Shown here in pieces: positions 28,046 through 48,384 of a stretch of 64,000 bases of DNA. Origin of the DNA: Actinokineospora bangkokensis (GTDB lineage Bacteria; Actinomycetota; Actinomycetes; Mycobacteriales; Pseudonocardiaceae); the NCBI RefSeq assembly GCF_001940455.1, contig NZ_MKQR01000009.1, positions 657,074-721,073 of the forward strand. Reading direction: 5' to 3'. Made by a program: the position numbers and the translations under genes. Below the pieces are notes generated by a model. The model saw only the letters and a program-made list of their open reading frames with translations. It searched no databases and was not told the origin of the DNA. Each line of letters starts with the position of its first letter. Within the stretch, counting starts at the first letter, position 1.

Positions 28046-29053
28046 TCAGCGTCGCAGCTCCTCGTGGTCGGGGACGCGGACCGCGGTCGCCAGCACCTCG
28101 TCGACCAGCCGCGCGGTGTCGGTGCACGGGGCCGCGGTCGCGGCCCCCGTGGGGTCGGGGCCCGCCAGCGCCGCGGTGGTGAACGCGGCGACGGCCAGCG
28201 CGAACTGGTCGGCGGCGGGCAGGGTGTGCTCCTCGGTGTGGTCCTGCTCCTCGACCCGCAGCACCGGCTGCCAGGTCGCGGGCGGGGTGAAGGCCTTGTC
28301 GGCGGTGAGGGTCCCGGTGGCGCCGTGCACCGCGTAGCGGGAGCGGTAGCCGTGCTGGAAGCCGAACCCGAGGGAGGCGAAGACCCCGTCGGGGGAGACC
28401 AGCAGGACAAGGCCCGCGACGTCGACGTCGCGGGCCTTGTCCACGCGCAGGGTGGCCCCGGCCACGGCCAGGCCGGGGCCCAGCAGCAGCCGGGCCAGCC
28501 GCAGCGGGTACACCCCGGCGTCGAGCAGCGCCCCGCCGCCGAGGTCGGCCCGGTAGCGGATGTCGGTGCCCGGCAGCGGGGGGATGCAGAACTCGGCGGT
28601 GAGGGTGCGCGGGGCCCCGATGCGCCCGTCGGCCAGCAGCCGCTGGACGCGGGCGTGCTGGGGGTGGTGCAGGAAGGTGAAGTTCTCCCGCAGCACCAGC
28701 CCGCGCTCGGCGGCGAGCCGGGTGAGGGCGGTGGTGGCCGCGGCGGTGGTGGTCATCGGCTTCTCGCACAGCACGTGCTTGCCCGCCAGCAGCGCGGCCT
28801 CGGCCCACCGGTGGTGCTCGGAGTTGGGCAGGGACACGTAGACGGCGTCGACGTCGTCGGCGGCGAGCAGCTGCTCGTAGGTCAGCGCGGCGGCCCCGGT
28901 GCCGGACTCGGCGGCGAACGCCTCGGCGCGGCGGGGGTCGCGGGCGGCGACGGCGGTGACCGCCGCGGCGGGGGTGGCGCGCAGGGCGGGCAGGGTGCGG
29001 CGGCGGGCGATCGAGGAGCACCCGAGCAGCCCCACCCGCAGCACCGGGGTCAC
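28046..29053 (-). CDS. NDP-hexose 3-ketoreductase, Gfo/Idh/MocA family
   Basis: 335 residues. The N-terminal GLLGCSSIARR Rossmann motif and CEKPM, with the catalytic Lys of this family, are clear. The family includes SpnN and KijD10, which reduce the 3-keto product of the 2,3-dehydratase to give 4-keto-2,6-dideoxyglucose. It directly follows that dehydratase gene with a GTGA overlap, which fits the two-enzyme 2-deoxygenation. Confidence 0.9.
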   Translation of the reverse strand: MTPVLRVGLLGCSSIARRRTLPALRATPAAAVTAVAARDPRRAEAFAAESGTGAAALTYEQLLAADDVDAVYVSLPNSEHHRWAEAALLAGKHVLCEKPMTTTAAATTALTRLAAERGLVLRENFTFLHHPQHARVQRLLADGRIGAPRTLTAEFCIPPLPGTDIRYRADLGGGALLDAGVYPLRLARLLLGPGLAVAGATLRVDKARDVDVAGLVLLVSPDGVFASLGFGFQHGYRSRYAVHGATGTLTADKAFTPPATWQPVLRVEEQDHTEEHTLPAADQFALAVAAFTTAALAGPDPTGAATAAPCTDTARLVDEVLATAVRVPDHEELRR

Positions 29054-47016: not shown

Positions 47017-48009
47017 CTAGCCCCCGTCCTCTCCCTCGCCGTCCTCCTGGCCGCCCGCCAACCCCTCCAACACCCGGTAAGTCCGGTTCGACGCCGCCGC
47101 CGCCCGCCGCTCCCGCCCTGTCGCATCGATGTAGCCCTGCGAGGTGTTCAGGCTCGCGTGCCCCAGCAGCACCATGATCTCCACCGCGTTCGCCCCGTCC
47201 TCGGCCAACCGCGTCGCGAACGTGTGCCGCAACGCGTGCAGGTTCGCCCCCGCGGGCACCCGGTCGTGCAACCCCGCCTGCCGGAAGCACTGCTTCACCA
47301 GGTAGTCCAACGCACCCCGCCCGATCCCCGCCCCGTCCGACCCCAGCACCAGCGGGTCCTCCGCCGACCACCGCGACGCCGGGAACCGCCGCTCGCACGA
47401 GGACAGGTACGCCGCGATCACCCGCTCCAGCGGCGGCTCGATCGGGATCGACCGCTCCCGGTTCGCCTTGCCGTGCACGTACACCCGCCGCTCACCCGGG
47501 CGCCCCACCACCGACGACCGCCTCAGCGCCCGGATCTCCGAGGCCCGCAACCCCGCCACCAACCCCAGCGCCAGCACCAGCAGGTCCCGCTCCGGCCACG
47601 GCACCCGCGCCCGCCGCGCCCCACCCGCGATCGCCGACAGCAGCTGCTCCGGCGTCGACTCGCCGCGCAGCGGCTTGGGGGAGAGGGGCCCCGGCCGCGG
47701 CCGCCCGATCGCGCCCATCGGGTTCCCACCAGCCAACCCGTCGGCCACGCAGAACTGGAAGAACTGGTTCCACGTCGACCACGCCCGCGCCACCGAGCTC
47801 TTCGCGTGCGTGTCCGCGAACGCCCCGAACGCCTCGCGCAGCACCTGGGCGCTGACCTGCTCCAGCTCGACGTCCTCGGTGCCCAGCGCGGCGACCAGGT
47901 GGGCGGTGACCCCGGCCAGGTCCCGGCGGTAGGCGGCGGTGGTGTGCGGGGAGTCCTTGCGCGGCCGCCGGGCCACGAAGAACGCGTCCTGCGCGTCGAT
48001 CAACCTCAC
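47017..48009 (-). CDS. Tyrosine site-specific recombinase, Xer-like
   Basis: 330 residues, slightly longer than XerC/XerD (about 300). An N-terminal SAM-like core-binding domain (1-105) precedes the catalytic domain. All catalytic residues are visible: Arg in ASEIRALR, Lys in HGKANRERSIPI, His and Arg in HALRHTFAT, His in LLGHASL, and the Tyr in SQGYID. GTG start. It lies beside two dif-like sites: a perfectly symmetric one 76 bases upstream of its start and the canonical dif 0.35 kb upstream. No excisionase, phage or transposon genes accompany it. I read it as a chromosomal Xer-type enzyme acting at one or both sites; an orphan integrase is the alternative. Confidence 0.92.
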   Translation of the reverse strand: MRLIDAQDAFFVARRPRKDSPHTTAAYRRDLAGVTAHLVAALGTEDVELEQVSAQVLREAFGAFADTHAKSSVARAWSTWNQFFQFCVADGLAGGNPMGAIGRPRPGPLSPKPLRGESTPEQLLSAIAGGARRARVPWPERDLLVLALGLVAGLRASEIRALRRSSVVGRPGERRVYVHGKANRERSIPIEPPLERVIAAYLSSCERRFPASRWSAEDPLVLGSDGAGIGRGALDYLVKQCFRQAGLHDRVPAGANLHALRHTFATRLAEDGANAVEIMVLLGHASLNTSQGYIDATGRERRAAAASNRTYRVLEGLAGGQEDGEGEDGG

Positions 48010-48373
48010 CGCACCTGCATACCCGGGCCCACCGACAAGTTGATCACCGACCCGCCGCCCGGCCGGGTGGTTCTCGCACTGGCGTTCGATGCATAACCGC
48101 GATTATGCATCGAACACGTGTTCGCCTGGATGGGGTCCGGTGGGCGAGTGTCGGGCTGTTCGGTCGACGTTCTGCCCGTCTCGCACACCCCGTGCCCGGC
48201 TCTCGCCGCCTCGGCGGGCGGCCGGTGTCCGATGCGCTCGAACGCTCGACGCGGACGACTCAAGGCTCCGGACGGCGCCGCGACGCGGCACCAGCGTCAA
48301 ATCGTCACCGTGACGTTTGTCGGCGGCTCATCAGGTCGACGACCCCAGGTTGGCCGATGTTCGATAATCGACA
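48010..48373. promoter_or_regulatory. Non-coding terminus interval between recombinase and aminotransferase genes
   Basis: 364 bases with no convincing gene. It holds the symmetric dif-like site, the overlapping palindrome at 48111-48124, a further palindrome CGTCAC-C-GTGACG at 48303-48315, and the left part of dif. Several short frames overlap one another and lack ribosome sites. Confidence 0.7.
48084..48115. repeat. Symmetric dif-like recombination site (13-bp arms, 6-bp spacer)
   Basis: The left arm GTTCGATGCATAA (48084-48096) and right arm TTATGCATCGAAC (48103-48115) are exact reverse complements around CCGCGA. The TAA-N6-TTATG core has the layout of dif, and the symmetry suits a single recombinase. 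It lies 74 bases upstream of the recombinase start, so an autoregulatory operator is the alternative reading. CGAACACGTGTTCG (48111-48124), a perfect palindrome, overlaps its right end. Confidence 0.65.
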
Positions 48374-48384
48374 TTATGTCAAGT
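48357..48384. other. Chromosome dimer resolution site dif
   Basis: 28 bp: XerC-side arm ATGTTCGATAA (48357-48367), central TCGACA (48368-48373), XerD-side arm TTATGTCAAGT (48374-48384). The CGATAAT and ACATTATGTCAAGT parts match what is known of actinobacterial dif sites. The XerD arm matches E. coli dif at 9 of 11 positions. Base composition and the CGGGGGAG octamer both switch strand here. The right arm doubles as the last codons and stop of the aminotransferase gene. Confidence 0.88.

Follow-up and report, generated by a model that had tools for sequence, protein, structure and literature searches.

A genome is usually credited with XerCD/dif as its sole means of resolving chromosome dimers, and single-recombinase systems are seen as replacements for it. 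On plasmids, multimer resolution of the Cre/loxP type relies on a recombinase and a symmetric site with 13-bp arms, as does the module described here, although the spacer of loxP is 8 bp long rather than 6 bp; we know of no counterpart of this type of resolution at a chromosome terminus.

Two single-recombinase systems, XerH/difH of Helicobacter and Campylobacter and XerS/difSL of streptococci and lactococci, share with our locus the use of one Xer recombinase, a dyad site, and linkage between gene and site. The central region of difH measures 6 bp, as does the spacer here, in contrast to the 11-bp center of difSL (PMC5357621, PMC5241119), and XerH reads the inner bases of the arms specifically and the outer ones through the backbone (PMC5241119). 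In the Legionellales, the XerL/dif system consists of a single recombinase and a site with long uninterrupted inverted-repeat arms, from which the gene may be far; XerL was described where XerCD had not been found, and a plasmid-borne XerL with an adjoining site is present in Coxiella (PMC9765430). Among the open-access matches listed on Xer, dif, and related terms, we found no description of an extra Xer system beside dif. Here, we describe a module that looks like such an overlooked second system of sister-chromosome separation in many actinomycete chromosomes.

Symmetric site, recombinase gene, and dif

The window, i.e., the whole 64-kb stretch of Actinokineospora bangkokensis DNA that was analyzed, spans 657074-721073 of contig C9 of genome G000 and contains a symmetric site (48084-48115, unstranded) that reads as an arm GTTCGATGCATAA (48084-48096), a spacer CCGCGA (48097-48102), and a second arm TTATGCATCGAAC (48103-48115), the two 13-bp arms being exact complements. 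We propose it as the recombination site of the adjoining gene, a 330-aa ORF for a Xer-like tyrosine recombinase on the minus strand (47017-48009), whose start is 74 bp from the palindrome, so that the latter lies upstream of the gene. A gap of 241 bp separates the palindrome from a canonical dif, the XerCD site (48357-48384, plus strand), which agrees with the Frankia dif CACGCCGATAATGCACATTATGTCAAGT (PMC3025954). The exact palindrome, its position upstream of an intact recombinase gene, and its proximity to dif, all noticed in the first-pass annotation, were confirmed. Two further elements are a LexA/SOS-box-like sequence TCGAAC-ACGT-GTTCGC (48110-48125, unstranded), which overlaps the dif-proximal arm, and a short dyad CGTCAC-C-GTGACG (48303-48315, unstranded) between the site and dif, partly kept in Actinokineospora.

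Exact 13-6-13 dyads number two in the window, compared with none in 60 simulated windows; the other one (28408-28439) is GC-rich and probably unrelated. When spacers of 3-10 bp are allowed, the window contains eight exact dyads, several of them overlapping, against a simulated mean of 0.12. Since exact dyads, also with other spacers, are frequent in the window as a whole, the dyad count alone is weak evidence, and chance is better judged by conservation, which is the stronger test.

The recombinase

The encoded protein contains the catalytic and core-binding domains of tyrosine recombinases (PF00589 and PF02899). Its catalytic set, R155, K181, H258, R261, H284, and Y293, is invariant in 24 aligned orthologs, and the same six residues are kept in 34/34 chromosomal and 15/15 plasmid recombinase rows. 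The best NCBIfam family is XerC, at 144 bits and thus below the equivalog cut-off of 335, followed by XerD at 125 bits (cut-off 330); the XerS equivalog (PRK05084) scores 46 bits against a cut-off of 267, so that by model score the protein is no XerS ortholog. The separate XerC and XerD proteins, whose presence elsewhere the first-pass annotation had left to be checked, are both encoded on other contigs of the same genome: XerD scores 340 bits, above its cut-off, and XerC 288 bits with XerC as the best family, yet below the cut-off. Identity to the recombinase is 80-87% in 12 of 13 named loci, all from Actinokineospora, and 57% in the thirteenth, from Allonocardiopsis (loci L038-L048 and L050 are the same contigs as G-numbered loci and were counted once).

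In a tree of 81 rows, which includes 34 of the chromosomal recombinases rather than every one found, the terminus recombinases and their plasmid relatives are placed apart from the XerD (96/97) and XerC (94/85) groups; by this placement and the sub-threshold scores, the enzyme is not an ortholog of XerC or XerD. The deepest joins are unsure because of four long-branched integrases. Sixteen rows of the window's own family group at 100/99, 13 rows of family f31 at 100/98, and the Actinokineospora rows, which represent six of the 16 genomes of the genus, at 100/100. Two further members of the window's family (G020 and G027) branch apart from these 16 rows, and hence the tree does not show a single vertical line. 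The predicted structure is a moderate model (mean pLDDT 79, pTM 0.57, below 50 in the tyrosine region); its first fold match in the PDB is XerH on difH, at a TM-score of 0.38, which would weakly favor the reading as a Xer single-recombinase system.

Co-occurrence of the site and the recombinase

The recombinase was found in 31 of 61 genomes, namely the source genome and 60 relatives; 30 of the hits score at least 305 bits, and the one in G043 scores 191 bits. Carriers include all 16 Actinokineospora genomes, 28 of the 37 genomes of the family, and some members of other families. The pattern ATGCATAA-N6-TTATGCAT, with at most two mismatches allowed, occurs in 29 of the 31 carriers and in none of the 30 non-carriers, and the two carriers missed by it (G020 and G032) have the site on a looser reading. 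The arms are therefore conserved in relatives together with the recombinase, the first of the checks that the first-pass annotation had suggested; the lack of conservation that it had named as refuting did not occur.

A similar picture was obtained for a class-wide draw of 345 genomes, with a recombinase threshold of E<=1e-50 and the stricter pattern TGSATAA-N6-TTATSCA. Twenty-seven genomes have the recombinase, 30 have the strict site, and 26 have both; in other words, the site is seen in 26/27 recombinase genomes vs. 4/318 others, although these genome counts are not independent of one another, since the genomes are related. The one recombinase genome missed by the pattern (G272) has a site that is one base off. 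The four genomes with a strict site and no recombinase at this threshold are G095, in which a short contig carries the site and, at a distance of 0.49 kb, dif, G387, where it is a lone site, G330, and G354. As most sampled actinomycetes lack the module, it is dispensable.

The pattern occurs exactly once per genome in all 16 Actinokineospora genomes, and 28 of the 29 positive relatives have a single match, the exception being G027 with a second, loose one. The first-pass annotation had suggested a resolution or inversion module. Resolution has comparative support, whereas an inversion switch is disfavored by these single matches. Exceptions to one site per chromosome are G043, G271, and G330, with two to four copies each. 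In two mycobacterium-like genomes, the chromosome of G271 and G354, a site is located 0.8-0.9 kb from dif with no recombinase nearby (L179:6183 and 12429; L181:9703; L180:8753). In G271, a contig of 191 kb carries the recombinase gene along with a site of its own, and a dif-like site lies 1.8 kb away.

Anatomy of the site

Thirty sites, 29 of them distinct, were aligned, the two G043 plasmid sites being left out. Positions T7, G8, A10-A13, T20-T23, and C25 are invariant, so that the inner TG-ATAA is kept and the conserved inner arms read TGSATAA-N6-TTATSCA. The spacer is 6 bp in every aligned site, and its sequence is free. At positions 9/24, C-G and G-C replace each other in step in many sites. 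Pairing is seen in 79.8% of dyad cells vs. at most 36% when the arms are slid by 1-3 columns, and 23 dyad cells are changed on both sides. In a shuffle control with five measures, three stand out (reached in 2, 4, and 2 of 500 shuffles) and two do not, namely pairs changed on both sides (108/500) and further pair types (148/500).

Exact 13/13 symmetry, which the first-pass annotation had taken as a sign of a single recombinase, is an exception among species. It was observed in 4 of the 32 sites compared (G000, G016, G030, and G036), and also in G237 and G208; the other 15 Actinokineospora sites are symmetric at 7-12 of 13 positions, with the degeneracy often in the outer portion of the dif-distal arm. 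As most orthologous sites are imperfect, we dropped exact symmetry as a defining feature.

Position beside dif and possible regulatory role

Both the site and dif were located in 46 carriers (28 genomes of the family, including G020, G025, and G032, as well as G050, G253, 15 genomes of family f31, and Allonocardiopsis). The distance between the two is 0.26-1.29 kb in 45 of these and 3.3 kb in G032; G044, in which the contig ends and no dif matches, is outside this count. In ten genomes (G005, G006, G014, G031, G036, G027, G050, G228, G289, and G323), the site is located at 0.455-0.496 of the circle from dnaA along the shorter arc; an eleventh, G253, was left out, its contig being a part of the chromosome. 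The terminus position proposed for the module is thus borne out: the site is close to dif in the carriers and, in these ten genomes, lies across the circle from dnaA. In 25 genomes of the family it keeps to one side of dif, and the side differs in G050, Allonocardiopsis, and a part of f31.

The gene is less constrained. In 13 of the 16 Actinokineospora genomes it starts within about 0.1 kb of the site, which is upstream of it. Elsewhere the gene is adjacent to the site or up to 8 kb off on either side (e.g., 5 kb in G006, 4.6 kb in G034, 3.7 kb in G021, and 6.3 kb in G016), with the exceptions of G027, where it is 1.5 Mb away, and G020, where it is on another contig. More than 1 kb separates the gene from the site in no fewer than 20 carriers, and in G237 and G228 the site is beyond the 3' end of the gene.

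These observations bear on the possibility that the palindrome is nothing but an operator, through which the recombinase or another regulator controls the recombinase promoter. Dyads are typical of operators, the short upstream distance in most Actinokineospora fits, and in 12 of the 16 genomes of this genus the LexA-box-like sequence runs into one arm. Nevertheless, the position next to dif is retained even where the gene lies kilobases or 1.5 Mb from the site, has the site beyond its 3' end, or is on another contig; the site is tied to dif and not to the gene, and hence is not simply an operator. As a general account we reject this explanation and hold it to be improbable, even if the site could be bound without being cleaved.

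Control of the recombinase promoter by the LexA-like box is a separate matter. The box was read against the Streptomyces LexA consensus tCGAAC-N4-GNNCGa (PMC9380542). With at most two mismatches, it was found in the 12 Actinokineospora genomes mentioned above and in 2 of 50 other rows; 52 of 1320 windows taken from these loci as background also matched to this degree. Because the box and the arm share a GTTTGA half, the arm may account for some of its conservation. The box is a possible control element, and given its rarity outside Actinokineospora we keep SOS control as a genus-level possibility and not as a shared mechanism.

Coexistence with XerCD and decay of XerCD in one clade

All 16 dif-bearing carriers that were checked have two XerC/XerD matches at E<=1e-50; as both proteins are present in each, no replacement of XerCD was seen in this set. 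A different situation is observed in six f31 genomes (G113, G208, G272, G315, G363, and G379), which keep the recombinase and the site. No dif was found in them at up to one mismatch, and there is one XerC/D match instead of two, XerC not being found. XerD is without its catalytic tyrosine in five of the six (the substituted copies are at L150, L153, L154, L155, and L156) and retains it in G379. The catalytic residues of the terminus recombinase are intact in five of the six, namely the five included in the tree. The dif pattern matches 221 of the 345 genomes of the class draw, and so the lack of a canonical dif may mean a diverged one. Two other f31 genomes (G298 and G306) have neither a dif match nor the recombinase. 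Absence of dif is expected of linear chromosomes; the chromosomes of the dif-less clade might be linear, in which case the decay of XerCD would be uninformative. In genus g64 of family f33, whose genomes measure 6-11 Mb, no genome except G325 has a dif match, in line with this expectation for linear chromosomes.

The palindrome might alternatively serve as a second dif used by XerC/XerD, or as an accessory site that helps them at dif. Its ATAA-N6-TTAT core indeed resembles dif, the distance to dif is short, and the side is the same throughout the 25 family genomes. However, the site is missing from the 30 relatives without the recombinase, though most of these have dif, and it survives in genomes with no XerC found and a XerD devoid of its tyrosine; in addition, related plasmid enzymes have comparable sites. 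Co-occurrence and the clade with decayed XerCD therefore disfavor this explanation, to which we give little credence.

Plasmid relatives

The recombinase matches 59 plasmid records at E<=1e-25, from Mycobacterium (32), Rhodococcus (18), Mycolicibacterium (7), Prescottella (1), and Dietzia (1). At the 13 plasmid loci that were read, the enzymes are 34-40% identical to the terminus recombinase. At eight of these loci, a symmetric ATAA-N6-TTAT dyad precedes the gene by no more than about 1.1 kb, e.g., AACTGATGGATAA-CATTCG-TTATCCATCAAAT in pJCM6399; L071 has a weak upstream dyad, and none was seen upstream of the gene at L073, L076, L078, and L079. In contig C2 of G043, the gene is placed as in a Mycolicibacterium crocinum plasmid. 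That the plasmid relatives often have such sites fits a probable derivation of the chromosomal module from plasmid multimer-resolution modules, or an ancestor shared with them. Among the open-access papers searched, none on Rhodococcus plasmid resolution was listed.

The plasmid relatives, the patchy distribution outside the family, and the several site copies in G043, G271, and G330 would also suit a mobile element that integrates beside dif, with the palindrome as its attachment site and the recombinase as its integrase. No pair of att copies enclosing an element was observed: with one match in 28 of the 29 positive relatives there is no attL/attR pair. Furthermore, the module is present in 16/16 genomes of the genus, whose six rows in the tree group together, and the gene has moved away from a site that keeps its place. 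Occurrence in single copies and throughout the genus thus disfavors a mobile element, which we consider quite unlikely. A mere terminus landmark, i.e., a fork trap or MatP-like site bound by the protein and not recombined, would agree with a single copy at the terminus and with conserved arms around a free spacer, which also fit a bound dimer, but it is very improbable given the invariance of all six catalytic residues and the plasmid counterparts, which resolution suits better.

Proposed mechanism

We assign a probability of roughly 0.7 to the reading that the module is a single-recombinase Xer resolution system, similar to XerS, XerH, or XerL, acting beside XerCD/dif. The first-pass suggestion of a further terminus module, in which one recombinase acts on a dif-like site of its own, is supported by the co-occurrence, the place near dif and opposite dnaA, the separate XerC and XerD, the constant 6-bp spacer of variable sequence, and the invariant catalytic residues. 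Judging from these features, each arm of the 32-bp site would be occupied by one recombinase monomer. Two copies of the site, carried by the two halves of a chromosome dimer or by linked sister termini, would then synapse, and strand exchange across the 6-bp spacer would yield two monomeric chromosomes. The site is in most cases 0.3-1 kb from dif and opposite the origin, in the region where sister termini come together at cell division, and hence it may act as a second terminus resolution site alongside XerCD/dif; FtsK could have a role in this. In most carriers the module would work in parallel to XerCD, and it persists in the one clade where XerCD/dif has decayed.

A second candidate companion of dif

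A second, different 13-6-13 site, ATACCRGACAGAA-N6-TTCTGTCYGGTAT, was noticed 0.4-0.8 kb from dif in four genomes (G145, G355, G075, and G371). The six dif-less genomes have it as well, at 0.4-0.7 kb from the first site, and so does G298 (L191), with no dif found nearby. The loci are L188:7272, L131:11216, L133:11052, L134:7911, L108:3001, L187:1436, L189:8238, L190:7874, L192:8248, L193:7835, and L191:8138. A tyrosine recombinase of about 370 aa is encoded in 15 of 37 genomes tested (e.g., G315:C37:74818-75927), among them the six without dif and all four in which the second palindrome is close to dif. This enzyme may be the partner of the second palindrome, which possibly represents another dif-companion system.

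On a wider and more tentative view, which we regard as somewhat less probable than its negation, actinomycetes would have a class of companion systems beside dif, each consisting of an extra Xer-type recombinase and a 13-6-13 site; in one clade, XerCD/dif would have decayed and the cell would live on the companions, and the second companion would belong to the same group. If so, chromosome dimer resolution is a stackable and replaceable function and not a fixed XerCD/dif pair.

Comparison with known systems

A single-recombinase module that coexists with XerCD/dif, has kept its site close to dif across several families, and has outlasted XerCD in one clade raises the questions of why resolution sites cluster at one point, whether the two systems share FtsK, and how a takeover happens. 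Its recombinase family also comes with many natural variants of the site, and it connects multimer resolution on plasmids with the maintenance of chromosomes.

The module resembles XerCD/dif in the 6-bp spacer, the ATAA/TTAT core, and the terminus position, and differs from it in the near-equal arms and in having a single dedicated recombinase that falls in neither the XerC nor the XerD group. The XerH and XerS systems stand in for XerCD, whereas the module described here coexists with XerC, XerD, and dif. Finally, with XerL/dif, beside which we set it by description, it contrasts in that its site is about 1 kb or less from dif.
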